In this document: positions 746 to 14,453 of the stretch, in pieces
Position numbering within the stretch: the stretch's first letter is position 1
How the letters are laid out: each line of letters starts with the position of its first letter
Virus record (IMG/VR): IMGVR_UViG_3300017917_002656
Coordinates: 1 to 35,848 of that record
Length of the DNA stretch: 35,848 bases
Source: a virus
Strand: one strand, 5' to 3'
Notes under the pieces: generated by a model
Database searches by the model: none
What the model was told of the DNA's origin: nothing
What the model saw: the letters and a program-made list of their open reading frames with translations, nothing else
Position numbers and translations under genes: made by a program

Positions 746-2683
746 ATGAGCGCAATATTAAAAATGAGAGTTCCTTTCTTTAGAAAAAAAGAAAGCGGTG
801 GTACTGACGGTAGAGCAACCTTCTATTTAGCCCAATCAGTTAATTATTTACCAGCGGCAAACCAAACAGTAACGGTAACTCACACAAATGTGAGAGGTAC
901 TGCTTTTCAAACCTATTTGAATAACAAATCAACAAATACCTTAACAGCCAAATTTGTTGAATATAACATCGATAATACAACAACCGCACCAGTAAACACG
1001 GACGGTTTTAATTATTATATGACGTTACAGTATACCGATCTTAGTTTATCCACTTATATCAACGGTGGTGACTGTAACGGTTATATTGAGTATGATGTGA
1101 ACCCAACGACATTAAGTGTACTCAAACCAGTTGAAACTCCAGTTGTTGTTTCTGAATCAATACCTTATGATTTATTTGACGGATACAACATCTTGACAAA
1201 TATTGTTACTGGTGGTACAATTCCAACAACAGGTATTACCAGAGGTATGCTTGTAAAAAGAGAAGAAGGTAATACTATATTTGCCAACTTATTAAAGAGT
1301 TTGAATTTACCTGTAACCGAGTTGGATTTGATGAAGTACAAAAGAAGTCAGCTTGGTACGAGTTCATTAGCTACTGGTACAACTTATGATTACTTACTGG
1401 GTGGGCAGAAATACAACTGGACACCATGGACAAGTACAGGATCAACATCTGGCGTAACATTATCAGTACACCCAACAAGTGGTTATACTGGTGAATACTA
1501 CGGTACCGTACTACAAACAATTGGTAGTTATGAATTTATGTCATCTAATAAAGCGGTATTGCCAGTTGAAAATGATATGTATTTGATATTCGAAATACCG
1601 AATAACGAATACGGCGAAATCATTGACGGTAAAACATTCAGAATGACTTTACCTTATTACGCTGCAACTGGCGTTACTGGTAATACACTTATTAACCAGG
1701 TATTTGGTTCATATACTGGATATTCATCAACACCAACACAACTTAGCATATATGGTACATATAACAAATCTGGTTACTCAAGAGGTATCAATATGGATAA
1801 AGCCCTATCTGAGACCGATTTGTCTGTACAAGATATTGGTGTAAGACCCGATCTAAACAATTCAACATTTAATGATACGACCTATCAAAGTAATGTGGTA
1901 TTATTATTCTCAGATACGATAAAAGCGCCATATGATAGTAATTTCTCATCGTGGAGTGGTGGTACTGTGGATTTGATGGAAGGTATAAAAGTATTCAGTG
2001 AAACAGCTGGTATTGAAAAACCAACTTATGATTACTTCAACGATCAGTGCGTTGGTTTTGTGGCCCTGGATAAAGGATTTGTTGTGATTACACATCCATT
2101 AATTGTGGACTCATACTTCAAAAATGTATTCAACGGTACAATATCATCGAGCGGAACATGGAGTGGTGGTACTAAGGTTTATGATTACGGTACGTTATCA
2201 ACAGGAACCACAAGAGGTAAGGTTAAAACTGACCCAACAAAAATGATCACAACTGTGGATAACTCTAACTATGTATATTGGGACAGCTCACAGTTTATCT
2301 TTACTGGTTTAACTGGTACGTATAGCGGTATTACTTCAAATATTGAATATAAGAGTTATAATACTGAAAAATCGCTGAACATAGTTTGTTTAGCATCCGC
2401 TAACGAGTTCTTTAGGTCGACAAGTGATTCGGCGAAAGAATTGTTCGGATTAACCACACAGGGGTCAACAACATCTAAATATGGTTTGGAAATGAGTAAC
2501 TTACTCAACACACCAACATATGCCGACTTCCAAACGGGTAGTGATGAGCTATATCCTGTTATCATCACTGGTTTAGGATTACATGATGCAAATGGTAATT
2601 TATTGGCGATTTGTAAACCATCGCAGCCAGTTAAAAAGTATTGGTATGACGTAGTGTCATTCAACATAAAAATAAGACTATAA
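746..2683 (+). CDS. Large virion structural protein (tail/baseplate type)
   Basis: A 645-residue protein rich in Thr, Gly, Ser and Tyr, with no cysteine cluster, signal peptide or membrane segment. The composition is typical of phage tail sheath, baseplate or fibre proteins. The C-terminal segment (about residues 605-645, reading GLGLHDANGNLLAICKPSQP and then ending in alternating hydrophobic residues) resembles the C-terminal ends of large structural proteins in other phages, as far as I remember. Its length is close to that of T4-type sheath proteins, but I cannot see sheath-specific motifs. It ends the structural run; the next 10 bases lead into a truncated gene start. Confidence 0.6.
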   Translation: MSAILKMRVPFFRKKESGGTDGRATFYLAQSVNYLPAANQTVTVTHTNVRGTAFQTYLNNKSTNTLTAKFVEYNIDNTTTAPVNTDGFNYYMTLQYTDLSLSTYINGGDCNGYIEYDVNPTTLSVLKPVETPVVVSESIPYDLFDGYNILTNIVTGGTIPTTGITRGMLVKREEGNTIFANLLKSLNLPVTELDLMKYKRSQLGTSSLATGTTYDYLLGGQKYNWTPWTSTGSTSGVTLSVHPTSGYTGEYYGTVLQTIGSYEFMSSNKAVLPVENDMYLIFEIPNNEYGEIIDGKTFRMTLPYYAATGVTGNTLINQVFGSYTGYSSTPTQLSIYGTYNKSGYSRGINMDKALSETDLSVQDIGVRPDLNNSTFNDTTYQSNVVLLFSDTIKAPYDSNFSSWSGGTVDLMEGIKVFSETAGIEKPTYDYFNDQCVGFVALDKGFVVITHPLIVDSYFKNVFNGTISSSGTWSGGTKVYDYGTLSTGTTRGKVKTDPTKMITTVDNSNYVYWDSSQFIFTGLTGTYSGITSNIEYKSYNTEKSLNIVCLASANEFFRSTSDSAKELFGLTTQGSTTSKYGLEMSNLLNTPTYADFQTGSDELYPVIITGLGLHDANGNLLAICKPSQPVKKYWYDVVSFNIKIRL

Positions 2684-2693
2684 AAACAAACAA

Positions 2694-2759
2694 ATGATTA
2701 AAAAAGAGATACAAGAAGAATTTTACTTACTTGGACTTGATGTGTCAACCAAAACATAA
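2694..2759 (+). pseudogene. Truncated 5' copy of the downstream RuvC-like gene
   Basis: This 21-codon frame encodes MIKKEIQEEFYLLGLDVSTKT and a stop. It matches the first 20 residues of the RuvC-like protein at 3485, where YLLGLDVSTKT recurs at residues 10-20. The last 18 bases before the junction (2739-2756 versus 3527-3544) are identical, while the codons upstream differ by synonymous changes (Leu, Gly, Tyr). The match ends exactly where the RuvC frame would continue; an in-frame TAA follows at once. I read it as the left-behind original start of the resolvase gene, cut off by insertion of the GIY-YIG cassette. Confidence 0.85.
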
Positions 2760-2782
2760 TTCACACTTTGCTATTTTTCTTA

Positions 2783-2791
2783 CTATTTATA
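2783..2791 (+). promoter_or_regulatory. CTATTTATA motif before GIY-YIG gene 1
   Basis: The motif lies three bases upstream of the preferred ATG at 2795. The second endonuclease gene has the same motif at nearly the same distance. This supports a private promoter giving a very short or leaderless message, and it helps decide the start. Confidence 0.4.
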
Positions 2792-2794
2792 GTT

Positions 2795-3481
2795 ATGGAA
2801 AATAGCAATTTTATTTATGGTTTAATTGACCCTATAACCAACCAATTAAGGTATGTTGGTAAGAGCATAAACCCCAAAAATCGTTTGAGAAAACATATTT
2901 CAGAAAGAAACCTTCATGATAGTTATAAAGATAGATGGGTTAGAAAATTATATAACCTTGATTTACGTCCAGAATTAATTATTATTGATGTGATTAATAA
3001 CGAAACGGATGATTGGAGATTTTGGGAGGTGTTTTACATATCTTATTTTAAGTCTATTGGTTGTAATTTAACTAACGGTACTCTTGGTGGTGATCAACCA
3101 CCATCAACAAAGGGTAGGAAGCAATCACTTGAGACAAGAACGAAAATGTCAAAAAGTAAGTCAGGTAAACCACCAGCGTGGTGGGTACCTGGGACGATAA
3201 GAAGTGAAGAACATAAACAAAATTTATCCAAAAGTTGTAAAGGGCGGGTTTCGCCTAATAAAGGTAAAAAATATTCGGAGGAACATAAAGCTAAATTAGT
3301 TAAAGCATCAACAGTCAATAAACCAGTTTTACAATTAGATTTGGATGGTAACTTAATAAAAGAATGGCCTTCTAAAAATTTAGCACAAAAAACATTAAAA
3401 ATAAGACATATATCCGAATGCTGTAATAACCTTAAAAATTTTAAAACAGCGGGTGGGTATAGATGGGTATATAAAAATTAA
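2795..3481 (+). CDS. GIY-YIG homing endonuclease (Seg-like) with NUMOD repeats
   Basis: A 228-residue freestanding homing endonuclease that should cut DNA of related phages lacking the cassette. The GIY-YIG nuclease domain covers residues 6-100: IYG at 7-9, YVG at 20-22, an Arg/His pair at 30 and 34, the likely catalytic Glu at 78 and the NGTLGGD segment at 94-100. Two or three NUMOD3-type DNA-binding repeats follow (about 105-175, pattern KGRKQS, then RSEEHK, then YSEEHK). A NUMOD1-like helix-turn-helix (about 178-225, QLDLDGNLIKEW, ending GGYRWVYKN) completes it. I chose ATG 2795 because an upstream TTG start at 2768 would add a poly-Phe/Leu leader and because the second endonuclease starts at the equivalent place. 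It ends three bases before the RuvC-like gene. Confidence 0.93.
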   Translation: MENSNFIYGLIDPITNQLRYVGKSINPKNRLRKHISERNLHDSYKDRWVRKLYNLDLRPELIIIDVINNETDDWRFWEVFYISYFKSIGCNLTNGTLGGDQPPSTKGRKQSLETRTKMSKSKSGKPPAWWVPGTIRSEEHKQNLSKSCKGRVSPNKGKKYSEEHKAKLVKASTVNKPVLQLDLDGNLIKEWPSKNLAQKTLKIRHISECCNNLKNFKTAGGYRWVYKN

Positions 3482-3484
3482 TAT

Positions 3485-4090
3485 ATGAAAAAAACTAACG
3501 ATAACGAATACTATCTTTTAGGTTTAGATGTGTCAACCAAAACAATTGGCGTGTCACTTTTTGATAATAAGGGACAACTACTGGAATTAACCCACATCTC
3601 ACCAAAGGCTAAACCAGTACCTGATTCAAAAACAGAAGAATTGATTAAAAAGGCGGATCTTTATGCTGAGTTCATTAAGAAATACGCCAAAATGAAAACC
3701 AAGATTAAACACGTTGTTATCGAGGAACCTTTATTGCGTTCAAACAACGTTAATACGGTGGGTACACTACTTAGATTTAATGGTATGGTAACCAAGATAA
3801 CATATGATATCATTGGGGTAGTACCAGAATATGTGAGTACATACGAAGCCAGAAAAAATGCCTTTCCTGAGTTAATGCAACCAGGATCGAATAAAAAACC
3901 AGTACTATTCGGTGCTTACTCGAAAGACACCGATAAAAAAATGGTAATCTGGGAGAAGGTATCGGAAAGAGACCCAAACATCAAATGGTTATTGGATGCT
4001 AAGGGTGCCTTGAAAAAAGAAAATTTCGATATGGCTGATGCATACACTGTATGTTTGTCATATATGAAAATGAAAAAGATCATCGAGTAA
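3485..4090 (+). CDS. RuvC-like Holliday junction resolvase (RNase H fold)
   Basis: This 201-residue protein should cleave branched recombination or replication intermediates. The acidic residues expected for a RuvC/RNase H fold are in the expected order: Asp15 in LLGLDVSTKTIGV, Glu80 or Glu81 in VVIEEPLL, and Asp182 with Asp185 near the C-terminus in DMADAY. It is somewhat longer than bacterial RuvC. The gene heads the recombination block and ends one base before the promoter of the primase gene. Its first 20 codons appear twice, here and in the stub at 2694, so the present start seems to have been supplied with the GIY-YIG insertion. Confidence 0.88.
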   Translation: MKKTNDNEYYLLGLDVSTKTIGVSLFDNKGQLLELTHISPKAKPVPDSKTEELIKKADLYAEFIKKYAKMKTKIKHVVIEEPLLRSNNVNTVGTLLRFNGMVTKITYDIIGVVPEYVSTYEARKNAFPELMQPGSNKKPVLFGAYSKDTDKKMVIWEKVSERDPNIKWLLDAKGALKKENFDMADAYTVCLSYMKMKKIIE

Positions 4091-4122
4091 TTTGGTTTTT
4101 TTGTTTTTTTTGCTTATTATTG
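4091..4122 (+). promoter_or_regulatory. Bacteroidota-type promoter for the primase gene
   Basis: TTTG at 4091-4094, a 20-base spacer and TATTATTG at 4115-4122 resemble the host primary-sigma consensus (TTTG, then TAnnTTTG). The predicted start of transcription is only about ten bases before ATG 4140, which supports that start codon over the upstream TTG at 4092. Confidence 0.6.
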
Positions 4123-4139
4123 ATGAAAACCATTCAAGC

Positions 4140-5111
4140 ATGTTTTTCTCAGACGATAAGCACGAAGAACTCATAAGTTTATTGGAGGATTTTCTTGGGG
4201 AACCAAGAAAACACTATGAAAGCAGAGGACAGATCAGTTTTGACTGTCCTAACTGTTCTTATGAGAAAGGCCTTGATCATGATGGTAAAGGTAACCTTGA
4301 AATAAACTATGAATTGGGTGTGTATAACTGTTGGGCTTGCGCTGAAACAGATGGTACCAAAGGTAAGTTATATTACCTATTCAAACAATACGCTGATAAA
4401 GAAACTTTAAAGAGATTTATAGATGGCCGTTTCGTGTTCGAAAGCGACTTTTATGAAGATGAGGAGGTTGAAACAAGTAAACAGGTTTTAAAGTTACCAG
4501 AAGGGTTCTACTCTTTAGCTGGTAAACAAGGACATACTTTATTTGTTTCAGCCTTTAATTATTTGTATTCCAGGGGTATTACCGATGAAATAATAACCAA
4601 ATATAAGCTTGGTTTTTGTCTGGATGGAAAATACCAGAATAGGATTATCATACCGTCCTATGATATTGACGGTGACCTAAATTATTTCGTTGCCCGATCT
4701 ATCAGTAAGCAAAATACCAAATATAAGTACCTAAACCCAGATACTGATAAAACCAGCATTATTTTCAATGAAAATATGATTAACTGGGATAGGCCCATAT
4801 TCCTGGTGGAGGGTGCTTTTGATCATATCGTAGTACCAAACAGCATACCTTTACTGGGTAAGAAGATGTATGATAAATTACTGGATACGATATACCATAA
4901 CGCTAAGAGTTATGTCATAATAGTACTGGATTCTGATGCTAATGATGACGCTGTTAAGATATACAATAAACTCGATTCGGGTAAGTTAATGAATAGGATT
5001 CTCATCAACAGAATGCCAGACGAACACGATATCTCGAGTTTTAACCAAACCTACGGCCAGGGTAACTTAAAAGAATGGTTGAAAAATAAAACAACAAGAA
5101 TAATTGATTAA
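4140..5111 (+). CDS. DnaG-type DNA primase (zinc finger plus Toprim)
   Basis: A 323-residue protein, probably the phage primase making RNA primers for the lagging strand. An N-terminal zinc ribbon has CPNC at 36-39 and CWAC at 64-67. A Toprim domain follows in the second half: FLVEGAFDH supplies the conserved Glu, and VIIVLDSDAND supplies the DxD metal site. It is shorter than bacterial DnaG and lacks an evident helicase-interaction domain, like other phage primases. I prefer ATG 4140; the in-frame TTG at 4092 overlaps the promoter and would add a poly-Phe/Leu leader. The downstream nuclease gene begins three bases after the stop, so the two are probably co-transcribed. Confidence 0.87.
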   Translation: MFFSDDKHEELISLLEDFLGEPRKHYESRGQISFDCPNCSYEKGLDHDGKGNLEINYELGVYNCWACAETDGTKGKLYYLFKQYADKETLKRFIDGRFVFESDFYEDEEVETSKQVLKLPEGFYSLAGKQGHTLFVSAFNYLYSRGITDEIITKYKLGFCLDGKYQNRIIIPSYDIDGDLNYFVARSISKQNTKYKYLNPDTDKTSIIFNENMINWDRPIFLVEGAFDHIVVPNSIPLLGKKMYDKLLDTIYHNAKSYVIIVLDSDANDDAVKIYNKLDSGKLMNRILINRMPDEHDISSFNQTYGQGNLKEWLKNKTTRIID

Positions 5112-11032: not shown

Positions 11033-12714
11033 TGTCAGTAATTATAGAAAACGTAAAAATCGTATCAAAAACGGGTACAACCAAAACAGGTAAACCGTAT
11101 AAGAATCTAATATTATCTTCTGATAATGCGGATCTTGGGGCGAGAAACGCCGAAAATGGTTGGATTGCCAACACACTTAAAATTACAAGTAAGTATGAAC
11201 CAGCGTTTTCTGAATTTAAGCAGCAATTTCCAGGCGTTGACGTTCCCACCAGGATGGTGACAACCGATAAGAATGTTTGGGGTTGGGGTTATTGGATTAA
11301 TAACCCAGAAGATGAGGCAAAGAAAATTGAAGGTATTAAAAAGTTAGCCCAGTTCCTAAATAAAGAAAGGAGCGTGGATAATACTGGCGATGAAACCATT
11401 GATAAGTTTGAAGGTTTTGAGGATGTTCAGGCTTTCATCGGTAGACTCAGAGAGATGCTGACTGAAATCAATATCCAGGATGAAGCCAAACAAAAAGAAC
11501 TTACACGAGGTATTGAAAACTTCATTAAGGAACTCGCACAATCAGTTGACGCTGTTGCGGCCAATGAAAAACTGGCTGAATTCTTTGAATGGAGAAGAAA
11601 ATTCCATACATTCTCGTTGAATAACACAATCCTTATTTTTGTGCAGAAACCTAACGCCACCCAGGTAGCGTCTAAGACAACATGGAAAAAATTAGGTTTT
11701 ACACCAAAAGAAGGTGCTACTCAGATTTGGTTATGGAGACCACATCTTAGACCAAAGAGCCCCGAATTTAAGGAGAAAATACGTAAAGAATTCATTGCAA
11801 AATACGGCAAGGGCGGTGTTTTATCTCCGAAGTATGAAAAGATGTTAAAAGATGAGTTGGATAAACCGATGGTTGATACAACAAAGAGACCAATTTTATA
11901 TCCGACTTATGACATAACAGATGTTGTGAATGAGGCTGGTGAATCTGGAGCCGAAAAAGCGCCACAAAAACCAGAACTTATGTGGTCAAATAATACTCCT
12001 AACGAGATTGGTGATAAGATAGCGGAAGCAATGTATAAGATTATACCAGCCTACGGTATTAAATTATCATTCTATAAACCAACTGGCGGTGAAAAGGGTT
12101 ATTCGGCGAGTGGGGATATACACCTATCAGATGAGCTGGTGGGTATAGCAAAAGCATCAACAGCTGTGCATGAATTTGCCCATGAAATAATGCACCAGAG
12201 CTACGTGAAAAGCGTTGCCGCTAAGGGTCAAAAAACGAGTGAAAAATCTAAACTCATCCAAGCCGCCTATGTCGGTAGAGATGTATCAAAAACACTCGAA
12301 TTACAAGCCGAGGGTGTGGCATATGTTGTATTAAGACAATTCGGTATTAACGAAGCTGAACACGCTGTAAACTATATCGCCTTATGGAATGGTGACCATG
12401 ATAGTGTTATGGGTAATCTTGACATTATCACAAGAACAGCAAACTTAATTATCAACGAGATAAATTCTCATTATGATACCACGGTTGACGATACGGGTGA
12501 TGAAACCGAATTTGGTGATTATGAGGCGGAACCAGAGACAGAAACACCAGTGACCGAAAACGAGGGTGGTGATATACCACATGCATCCACTGTAACAAGA
12601 GGTGATGTTGCTAAGATGTTGGGACTTAAAACAACCAAAGAACCAGACCATATCAAAGAACTTGAAACAACATTGAACGAAGCAAAACAACTTATTAAAT
12701 CAATAATAATATGA
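11032..12714 (+). CDS. ArdC-like protein with a zinc metallopeptidase motif
   Basis: A 560-residue protein resembling ArdC-type antirestriction proteins. Residues 1-80 (ENVKIVSKTGTTKTGKPYKN and beyond) read like a small beta-rich, possibly OB-like domain. Residues ~170-240 carry the ArdC N-domain pattern (FHTFSLNNTILIFVQKPNAT, then TTWKKLGFTPKEGATQIWLW), which in ArdC binds single-stranded DNA. A metallopeptidase domain has HEFAH at 380-384, with Glu427 in ELQAEGVAYV as the likely third zinc ligand. A long acidic C-terminal tail follows. In plasmids, ArdC protects incoming DNA from restriction; here it could guard phage DNA or process a host factor. Its stop overlaps the start of the truncated gene at 12711. 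Confidence 0.8.
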   Translation: MSVIIENVKIVSKTGTTKTGKPYKNLILSSDNADLGARNAENGWIANTLKITSKYEPAFSEFKQQFPGVDVPTRMVTTDKNVWGWGYWINNPEDEAKKIEGIKKLAQFLNKERSVDNTGDETIDKFEGFEDVQAFIGRLREMLTEINIQDEAKQKELTRGIENFIKELAQSVDAVAANEKLAEFFEWRRKFHTFSLNNTILIFVQKPNATQVASKTTWKKLGFTPKEGATQIWLWRPHLRPKSPEFKEKIRKEFIAKYGKGGVLSPKYEKMLKDELDKPMVDTTKRPILYPTYDITDVVNEAGESGAEKAPQKPELMWSNNTPNEIGDKIAEAMYKIIPAYGIKLSFYKPTGGEKGYSASGDIHLSDELVGIAKASTAVHEFAHEIMHQSYVKSVAAKGQKTSEKSKLIQAAYVGRDVSKTLELQAEGVAYVVLRQFGINEAEHAVNYIALWNGDHDSVMGNLDIITRTANLIINEINSHYDTTVDDTGDETEFGDYEAEPETETPVTENEGGDIPHASTVTRGDVAKMLGLKTTKEPDHIKELETTLNEAKQLIKSIII

Positions 12715-12803
12715 ATAAAGAAAACGTAACTAAGAATTTTATAATCGGTACATTCGTAACGTTATATGTTTTAGTTTCATTGATATCAACAATCTTTTAT
12801 TAA
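12711..12803 (+). pseudogene. Truncated 5' copy of the downstream membrane protein gene
   Basis: This 30-codon frame starts inside the ArdC-like stop (ATGA overlap) and ends in TAA. Its residues KNFIIGTFVTLYVLVSLIST match the start of the membrane protein at 13596 (DKFVIGSFVVLYVLTSCIST). Homology stops after the shared 11 bases ATATCAACAAT (12783-12793 versus 13665-13675), and three codons later a stop ends the frame. The two copies differ at many synonymous and some replacement sites, like orthologues from different phages. I interpret it as the original gene start, cut off by the second GIY-YIG cassette. Confidence 0.82.
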
Positions 12804-12811
12804 ACAAAACA

Positions 12812-12820
12812 CTATTTATA
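12812..12820 (+). promoter_or_regulatory. CTATTTATA motif before GIY-YIG gene 2
   Basis: CTATTTATA ends three bases before ATG 12824, the same arrangement as at the first endonuclease gene. No TTTG is found at the usual upstream distance. Confidence 0.4.
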
Positions 12821-12823
12821 TGT

Positions 12824-13618
12824 ATGGATACTATTACATATAAAATATACGGGGTTTTGAATCCAAAGTCAAATAAGCACTATGTAGGTAAAACTAAACA
12901 CTCATTATTAAAACGAAAAAAAGAACATATTGCAGCCGCTAACCGAAAAACGGGTTCGCATAAGTTTTATGACTGTATTCTTGTTGAGGGTGATAATCTT
13001 GTCTGGTTTATTATTGAGGATGGGTTGACGGAAGAAAATGTTAATGAGCGTGAGCAATATTATATTTTTCTTTATGATTCTTTCAATAACGGTTATAATG
13101 GTACATTGGGTGGTGATGGTGGTGATACTTGGTCAAATAATGATAAGTTAGAACAGTTCAAAGAGAAACGGAGATTAGAATGGTTGGGTGAGAAAAATCC
13201 AAATTACGGCTCACCGTTACCTGAAGAACAAAAATCAAAAATGATCACTTCAAAAAAAGGCATACCTATCCATAGTCTTGAATATCGTTTTAAACTTAGT
13301 GAACGAATGCGCCAAGAATGGCATGAGGGTAAACGTATAAATTATTTAAGTGATTACGCTAACAATCGTTTAGGTTCTGTCTTGAATGACGAACAAAAAA
13401 GTAAAATTGGTGAGGGGGTTAAAAACTCAGAAAAATATAAAGCGAGTATAAAAACGAGGGCGATTACTAAACGTAAAAAATATAACGAACGAATAGAAAA
13501 ATTTGGTTCTTATTTAAACGAGAATAAGTCAAAGGAAGAAATTATGGCTCTTATGGAGATAAAAGAACCAACATATTACAAATATAAGAAAGATTATGAA
13601 TCAAAAATTAATAGATAA
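12824..13618 (+). CDS. GIY-YIG homing endonuclease, second cassette
   Basis: A 264-residue freestanding homing endonuclease. The GIY-YIG domain has IYG at 8-10, YVG at 20-22, Arg31 with His35, a likely catalytic Glu at 77 in EREQYY and the NGTLGGDGGD segment at 92-101. NUMOD3-type stretches follow (GEKNPNYGS, PEEQKSKM, then NDEQKSKIGEGVK), with a basic helical C-terminus (KSKEEIMALMEIKEPTYYKY) that may be a helix-turn-helix. It resembles the first endonuclease in design, but its C-terminal DNA-binding region differs, which fits a different target gene. Its last 23 bases also encode the first codons of the membrane protein at 13596 in another frame. Confidence 0.92.
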   Translation: MDTITYKIYGVLNPKSNKHYVGKTKHSLLKRKKEHIAAANRKTGSHKFYDCILVEGDNLVWFIIEDGLTEENVNEREQYYIFLYDSFNNGYNGTLGGDGGDTWSNNDKLEQFKEKRRLEWLGEKNPNYGSPLPEEQKSKMITSKKGIPIHSLEYRFKLSERMRQEWHEGKRINYLSDYANNRLGSVLNDEQKSKIGEGVKNSEKYKASIKTRAITKRKKYNERIEKFGSYLNENKSKEEIMALMEIKEPTYYKYKKDYESKINR

Positions 13619-14453
13619 GTTTGTTATTGGTAGCTTTGTCGTACTGTATGTGTTAACAAGCTGCATATCAACAATACACGTAATTGACTTCTTTAGGTTA
13701 TCTAACCCGAATTGGCTGGCTACCACACTCGCAATAGCGTTTGAAGTGGGTGCGGCTGCTTCATTAGCGTCAATTATAGCTCTTAAAAAGATGAATAAGG
13801 GTATTGTGTGGGCATTATTCTTTATGTTAACCCTTATGCAAGCCATGGGTAACACATACTATGCTTATACGCACCTGGTTAATTACCAAAGCTGGATTGA
13901 ACTATTCGGTTTGGTTGATAGTGAGGTAATTGAACAGAAACGTATATTATCTCTTGTTTCTGGAGCCATACTACCATTGGTAGCTCTTGGGTTTATCAAA
14001 TCTTTGGTGGATTATATCAAACCCGATGAAGAACAACCCAAAACACCCGATACAATTCCAGCACCCACCTTCCCTGCTGATTTAATCTTAGTTAATAAAG
14101 GTGACGAAGAGGTGGATATAACAGATCTTAAAGAAGCCAAAGTGGATTATGACGCTGTCATCAAAGCGGGGCAAGAAGCACAACATGCCAAAATAATGGA
14201 AGTTCTCAATAGAAAAGCTAAAGAAAGGGAAGAAAGGGGTGAAACATATGAAGATGAACCAACAGCATTAGCTAACTCTTTCCATACCGAACGGATCACG
14301 GAAGATGAATTAGAAGCTGAGGTGGAATCTGAACCAGAAGATGAAGTAATACCAGAAAGTCAAGAGCCTATTGTTGAAGAAAATAAAGAGGAAGATCCTA
14401 AAATGAAGATCCTCAACAATATAAAGGTTTTTGTTAATGGTGAAGCTAAATAA
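13596..14453 (+). CDS. Four-helix membrane protein with acidic cytoplasmic tail
   Basis: A 285-residue protein with four predicted membrane segments (about 9-29, 40-63, 69-92 and 115-136). A ~145-residue charged, strongly acidic, probably disordered tail follows (clusters such as EDEVIPESQEPIVEENKEED). I do not recognise the family. The hydrophobic segments contain no obvious catalytic or transport motif. The start codon lies inside the end of the second GIY-YIG gene; a diverged copy of its first 28 codons remains at 12711, so the present start was probably brought by the cassette. The gene overlaps the amidase-like gene by about 17 bases. A role in host membrane takeover or lysis timing is possible but unproven. 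Confidence 0.78.
   Translation: MNQKLIDKFVIGSFVVLYVLTSCISTIHVIDFFRLSNPNWLATTLAIAFEVGAAASLASIIALKKMNKGIVWALFFMLTLMQAMGNTYYAYTHLVNYQSWIELFGLVDSEVIEQKRILSLVSGAILPLVALGFIKSLVDYIKPDEEQPKTPDTIPAPTFPADLILVNKGDEEVDITDLKEAKVDYDAVIKAGQEAQHAKIMEVLNRKAKEREERGETYEDEPTALANSFHTERITEDELEAEVESEPEDEVIPESQEPIVEENKEEDPKMKILNNIKVFVNGEAK

Follow-up and report, generated by a model that had tools for sequence, protein, structure and literature searches.

It is commonly assumed that selfish endonucleases reach conserved coding sequence mostly by hiding in introns or inteins. Other arrangements have nevertheless been described, and those closest to the case that we report here come from fungal mitochondria, namely, the mobile-ORF hybrid genes of Allomyces macrogynus (atp6) and of Glomus/Rhizophagus (atp6, atp9, cox2 and nad3), in which an endonuclease ORF near the gene end supplies a foreign C-terminus, fused to the resident gene, and leaves the native C-terminus stranded; the stranded ends cluster with relatives, and the inserted ends do not (PMC3630166). 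Further C-terminal duplications are on record (PMC6279837; PMC4019555). In phages, the T4-type free-standing homing endonucleases (Seg, Mob) are intergenic, with cut sites hundreds to thousands of bp away, and MobE in Aeh1 nrdA and MobA in T4 topoisomerase leave their target in two pieces that must assemble (PMC2988022). Finally, the engineered home-and-rescue drive HomeR, as outlined in PMC7968924, combines a homing nuclease, inserted into the gene that it targets, with recoded sequence that restores this gene.

The locus investigated here lies in a viral contig of 35,848 nt (IMG/VR record IMGVR_UViG_3300017917_002656), which was analysed over its whole length and is referred to as the window. 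It holds a cassette made of a stop, a TATTTATA leader, a GIY-YIG gene and a replacement start, which is inserted after the GLDVSTK(T) codons of a RuvC-like gene. As with T4 Seg and Mob, an intron-less phage endonuclease gene sits beside its target, with presumed co-conversion of the flank; unlike those free-standing genes, it is inserted inside conserved codons, and the start is rebuilt. As with MobE and MobA, the endonuclease gene lies inside a functionally critical coding region, but the RuvC target is a single complete ORF. Like the endonucleases of mobile group I introns and inteins, it occupies highly conserved codons, the most conserved ones of a gene of the essential type, and leaves that gene intact; however, the cassette has no splicing element, and it is a spare gene end that would keep the function. 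The features of this locus are as follows.

746..2683, + strand: upstream gene, 645 aa, function unknown; in endonuclease-free relatives its stop stands ~10-15 nt before the native RuvC start
2694..2759, + strand: stub, in which the native opening of the RuvC-like gene (21 codons) is followed by a stop that the cassette supplies, reading MIKKEIQEEFYLLGLDVSTKT and then stop
2739..2756, + strand: left copy of 18 identical bases, codons DVSTKT, with the cassette insertion point directly after; this point is the same in ten distinct phages, the window included
2757..2794, + strand: left end of the cassette, with the stop, a TTCACAC box and the endonuclease leader
2768..2809, + strand: hairpin with a 12-bp stem enclosing TATTTATA and the endonuclease start codon, a putative regulator
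2784..2791, + strand: promoter-like motif TATTTATA, 3 nt before the endonuclease ATG
2795..3481, + strand: GIY-YIG endonuclease, 228 aa, with NUMOD3 and a sub-threshold NUMOD1
3485..3544, + strand: 20-codon replacement start of the RuvC-like gene, whose GLD holds the presumed first catalytic Asp
3485..4090, + strand: complete RuvC-like resolvase gene, 201 codons (PHROG 159 RuvC-like, E = 1e-9)

We confirmed that the duplicated start is real. The stub ORF (2694-2756) is closed by a TAA stop at 2757-2759 and, as originally described, duplicates the first 20 codons of the gene at 3485: the 20 replacement codons align to the 21-codon stub with 40/60 nt identical, including all of the final 18 (2739-2756 = 3527-3544), and a comparison of the flanks upstream and downstream of the endonuclease recovers the pair with E = 9e-6. 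The differences had been described as mostly synonymous, which holds for codons 9-20 but not for the first eight codons, which are not conserved; 11 codons differ, five of them synonymously, and all five fall in the second half. The live gene opens with MKKTNDNEYYLLGLDVSTKT. Between stub and gene lie only the stop, motif and endonuclease gene that had been named, to which the TTCACAC box and the 12-bp hairpin are to be added, and nothing else. Copies of the stub elsewhere were sought and not found, and a degenerate search for other stubs with a stop directly after STKT returned a single out-of-frame chance match. Since many independently assembled contigs show the same architecture, an assembly artefact is unlikely. 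In the target gene itself, GLDVSTKT could be aligned with GLDLGTKT of 1vhx, but only at E = 0.16; relatives in cultured phages were absent at E 1e-5.

The endonuclease matches the GIY-YIG domain PF01541 with 22.8 bits, just above the cut-off of 22.6, and a PHROG homing endonuclease with E = 3e-17; NUMOD3 (E = 3e-13) lies above the Pfam cut-off and NUMOD1 (0.006) below it. The IY..YVG, Arg, Glu and Asn positions are conserved across nine relatives. Peptide patterns from the window endonuclease by itself missed its relatives, whereas an alignment of three (A4) retrieved 17 close ones, and the family comprises ten distinct loci, namely, the window, L104, L107, L112, L113, L116, L117, L118, L133 and L286, with 53-62% identity to the window enzyme where compared. 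Wherever the contig permits a check, the endonuclease lies directly upstream of a RuvC-like gene, with RuvC start codons just before every family endonuclease and the insertion at the same codons, GLDVSTK; the new RuvC start codon adjoins the 3' end of the endonuclease gene or overlaps it. The two genes each form a complete ORF of their own, and no Rfam family, and so no intron, was matched in the window. The left end is also shared, with the AC of the stub followed by TTTTTCAC(A/G)C, or by TAATTCACAC in the window, and the TTCACAC box (TTTTTCACA/G) is common to the window, L113, L118, L117 and L286. Insertion in a fixed coding motif suggests that the cut site is nearby.

The stubs of this family are of two kinds. 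Fresh ones match 19-20 of 20 informative bases of the motif (window, L113, L117, L118), and older ones 15-17 of 20 (L104, L107, L112, L116, L133, L286), the latter having lost the start codon or the frame and having acquired nonsynonymous changes at residues that are invariant in all live copies. On a tree of RuvC bodies, the presence of the endonuclease is patchy and requires seven changes, at least five of them forced by well-supported branches, a pattern that fits repeated gain or an old insertion with repeated loss alike. In L113 and L118 the serine codon of the motif is recoded from TCN to AGC. The supposition that the cassette had altered its cleavage site finds no support in the 18 junction bases of the window, which are unaltered, although they are recoded in these homologous cassettes; any resistance in the window would have to come from altered upstream bases, from the splitting of the site or from some other cause. 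Some RuvC genes (L249, L148) have a family-1 endonuclease upstream and a related antisense endonuclease downstream.

The leader has features of its own. The hairpin of cassette 1 takes in the start codon along with ACTATTTATAG and folds, as RNA, at -16.5 kcal/mol (z = -4.5), and together with TATTTATA it resembles the hairpin/late-promoter control of T4 I-TevI, SegB and Aeh1 MobE (PMC2988022). As a general trait of the cassettes the hairpin was rejected, being strong only in cassette 1, L107 and L116 and weak elsewhere; in L107 (2940-3020) it is a near-perfect 19-bp hairpin around TATTTATA before the endonuclease start, at -20.5 kcal/mol. Seven of the ten exact copies of TATTTATA in the window fall within 80 nt upstream of an ORF start, a space that makes up ~4% of the sequence, and the motif is seen shortly upstream of ORF starts at 328, 2784, 12813, 16408, 20882, 22475, 22520 (- strand) and 25160. 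It is probably a candidate promoter element of this phage group, even if a sigma-type reading would leave only 3 nt to the ATG.

Which of the two starts is native could be decided by comparison with relatives. A RuvC search of 2.9 million viral contigs yielded 69 RuvC loci, and relatives at ~67-77% protein identity have no endonuclease and a RuvC that opens MxKEIQEE(Y/F)YLLG..., as the stub does. Over the last 51 nt, the stub is identical to the native starts of close endonuclease-free relatives at 41-48 positions, and the replacement start at 28-34 (28-36 for all relatives other than L001). The one exception is the nearest relative, L001 (95% RuvC identity), whose start matches the stub at 31/51 nt and the replacement start at 48/51. 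Because the matches are divided in this way between the endonuclease-free relatives and L001, we take the stub to be the old start and the replacement to be the newcomer, in keeping with the original prediction that the cassette brought in a diverged gene start; cassette 2, described below, agrees. Nor did we find the stub in relatives without the endonuclease, the observation that the prediction had set against itself: in 105 distinct RuvC loci, no second copy of the start occurs in the 390 nt upstream of RuvC. The stub-type starts (2694-2756; L002-L015, L222-L230) are unusually conserved as DNA over these 51 nt (41-48/51), which contrasts with a synonymous identity of the gene body of only ~43% to L003, the sole relative measured.

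L001 has the replacement start and neither the stub nor an intact endonuclease. Its 100-nt gap encodes 18 residues, MLYIYRLFESHTNEASYVR followed by a stop, which is the top match in that locus to a profile of endonuclease N-termini (E = 0.0015) and, over all 69 loci, ranks directly after the genuine GIY-YIG genes (E = 0.089). On this modest evidence, the peptide is probably an N-terminal remnant of a lost GIY-YIG endonuclease. L271 (2252-2560) has a decaying start copy, MIKEPEFLLALILVKNT, a truncated endonuclease remnant with NUMOD only, apparently from another endonuclease family, and a live gene opening with MKNKIEKEPEFLLSLDVSTST, and may represent an intermediate, decayed cassette.

The relationship with L001 extends beyond the start. 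As a measure we used the share of identical amino acids encoded by the identical codon in the window and in L001.

3485..4365, + strand: presumed co-conversion tract common with an L001-like phage, synonymous codon identity 76-96%

In neighbouring genes this share is ~60-65%, as in the upstream gene (349/582), whereas in RuvC it reaches 154/180 (86%; Fisher p = 5e-11 against the upstream gene), being highest near the start (96%) and falling to background ~300 nt into the primase gene. A control comparison with L003 gave no rise in synonymous identity at RuvC. Repair from an L001-like donor, begun at the cassette and running rightwards, would leave such a footprint, and co-conversion seems to have covered RuvC and reached the primase gene; if so, the transferred segment probably included the body of RuvC and not merely 20 codons. 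The predicted entry after codon 20 stands as far as the junction is concerned, which is the same in ten phages, but the transferred segment probably extended beyond the 18 shared bases.

A second cassette of the same kind interrupts a membrane-protein gene of the window, with the following features.

12711..12803, + strand: stub of cassette 2, the start that was native to the membrane-protein gene, reading MNKENVTKNFIIGTFVTLYVLVSLISTIFY and then stop
12813..12820, + strand: TATTTATA motif, 3 nt before the endonuclease ATG
12824..13618, + strand: cassette 2 GIY-YIG endonuclease, 70% identical to the same-site enzyme in L082
13596..13676, + strand: replacement start of cassette 2, with an ATG that still falls within the endonuclease ORF, at its 3' end
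13596..14453, + strand: intact downstream gene, membrane protein, function unknown

The restarted gene opens with MNQKLIDKFVIGSFVVLYVLTSCISTI. L082 has an endonuclease inserted at these codons as well, likewise with a stub and a replacement start of its own. In the window, the stub (86%) and the gene body (81%) are nearest to L078, which is the genome of L001, and in L082 they are nearest to L081 (90% and 87%, respectively). By contrast, the replacement starts of the window and L082 are nearest to each other (75%), with 56-67% identity to every native start, and the window stub has only 60% nt identity to its own replacement start. Since the replacement starts match each other, and the stubs and bodies match the local lineage, the replacement start travels with the endonuclease into different backgrounds. 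Cassette 2 thus supports the cassette idea directly, without recourse to cassette 1. The order stub, GIY-YIG gene and restarted gene (12711-14453) is common to L082 and L089, and relatives of this second endonuclease were absent from cultured phages at E 1e-5.

The flank test also matched L062, in which the endonuclease is located after RuvC, and a search with its endonuclease family led to three distinct phages with a mirror-image layout, that is, a RuvC with a complete C-terminus, then a GIY-YIG gene, then a leftover C-terminus.

L137 (= L062), 2900-3900: 3' cassette
L140, 2900-3850: 3' cassette
L146, 2900-4080: 3' cassette

The leftover C-termini begin at the Met of FD-MxDA and read MADALTCVVGYMRKNNFWK to a stop, MSDSYLCVIGYIQKNGYW and onwards, and MTDAACAVLGCMNKEEVWLAENRK to a stop; in L140 and L146 the leftover shares bases with the stop codon of the endonuclease gene. 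From the 5' and 3' layouts it follows that separate GIY-YIG families target the N- and C-terminal motifs of RuvC, each with a putative supply of the displaced end. These three phages are a direct parallel to the fungal mobile-ORF elements, which share with the window cassettes, and presumably with these three phages, a foreign gene end that is carried along and a native end that is stranded beyond the endonuclease. The fungal elements, however, replace mitochondrial C-termini and mostly encode LAGLIDADG enzymes (GIY-YIG in atp9), whereas the window cassettes rebuild a 5' end with a new start codon in a virus. In the non-subscription literature that was searched, neither the 5' form nor any case from a phage came to light.

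Among about 110 GIY-YIG genes submitted to flank duplication tests, convincing duplications were obtained only at RuvC and at the gene of cassette 2; flank matches in L179 and L183 look like chance. In L171 (897-1925) and L195 (2989-3606), the endonuclease gene ends in codons similar to those for the C-terminus of the gene that immediately precedes it, a likeness that we could not explain. The host could not be named either, as the four genome matches are MAG or single-cell contigs of mixed origin.

Taken as a whole, these observations support the interpretation from which the analysis started, and we consider it very likely that they are best explained by an intronless homing cassette that regenerates the gene end it destroys, much like a natural home-and-rescue drive. 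The endonuclease would cut the uninterrupted RuvC gene at the conserved GLDVSTK(T) motif, and the break would be repaired from a cassette-bearing genome, with upstream DNA and the stub as homology on the left and the rest of RuvC on the right. In one step the recipient would gain both the endonuclease and a working, uncut start, with co-conversion extending rightwards through RuvC. The native start is left behind as a dead stub, and the replacement start, predicted to be uncut, would keep the RuvC gene active, so that the restarted gene should still work. Decay would then reach the stub first and the endonuclease later, until the replacement start alone remains, as in L001. The logic is that of HomeR as outlined in the source cited above, with no kinship implied, the cassette being a natural phage element with a protein endonuclease.

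Other readings have to be weighed against this one. That the body and replacement start of the window RuvC both match the nearest relative, L001, could mean that they are native to the lineage and that the stub is the foreign part, brought in as the left end of the cassette. We regard this as very unlikely, as the stub occupies the exact position of the native start, ~10 nt after the upstream gene, it is RuvC that stands out as the region of abnormal similarity to L001, and in cassette 2 the stub of either phage is that of the local lineage. Recombination is free among phage genomes, and a replacement start without an intact endonuclease occurs in L001, so a second RuvC start might instead have arisen by chance recombination or duplication, with the endonuclease landing between the two copies later. 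To this we give only a slim chance: a doubled start is missing from every endonuclease-free RuvC locus scanned, ten family members share an identical junction, and the architecture recurs at an unrelated gene, again in more than one phage (two).

The stub itself invites two further explanations. It could have been retained because it serves as a leader peptide or regulates RuvC or the endonuclease, given that fresh stubs keep an open frame and that a stub remnant always lies just before the endonuclease; this is highly improbable in view of L104, L107, L112, L116, L133 and L286, where only out-of-frame or start-less remnants with nonsynonymous changes are left. Alternatively, splicing or translational bypass could link the stub to the gene, or a degenerate or undescribed intron could be present, introns and inteins being the usual way for an endonuclease to reside inside conserved codons. 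We find this barely credible, as the intron search against Rfam was negative in the window, start codon and invariant residues are missing from the older stubs, and joining would duplicate the start, because the downstream ORF is complete and repeats it.

The homing cassette with its spare gene end is, moreover, no one-off, as there are ten related 5' cassettes, this one included, as well as the second cassette of the window and the 3'-end family. It seems likely that these belong to a general class in phages, in which several GIY-YIG lineages have independently attached to themselves an end of their target gene and so invade the codons of catalytic motifs without an intron, RuvC being bracketed by two such families, one at the GLDVSTK start and one at the FD-MxDA C-terminus. 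They would be natural home-and-rescue drives, with a life cycle of invasion, decay of the stub, decay of the endonuclease and a replaced end that lasts. For phages, such cassettes would be another route into conserved coding sequence, with a spare, recoded gene end carried along, and they leave a genomic signature that can be searched for, namely, stub, endonuclease and restarted gene. They would also account for mosaic alleles of RuvC in phage genomes, for unusual N-termini and for gene starts that are short and dead, and their fresh, decaying and burnt-out copies let the long-term fate of a home-and-rescue design be read.
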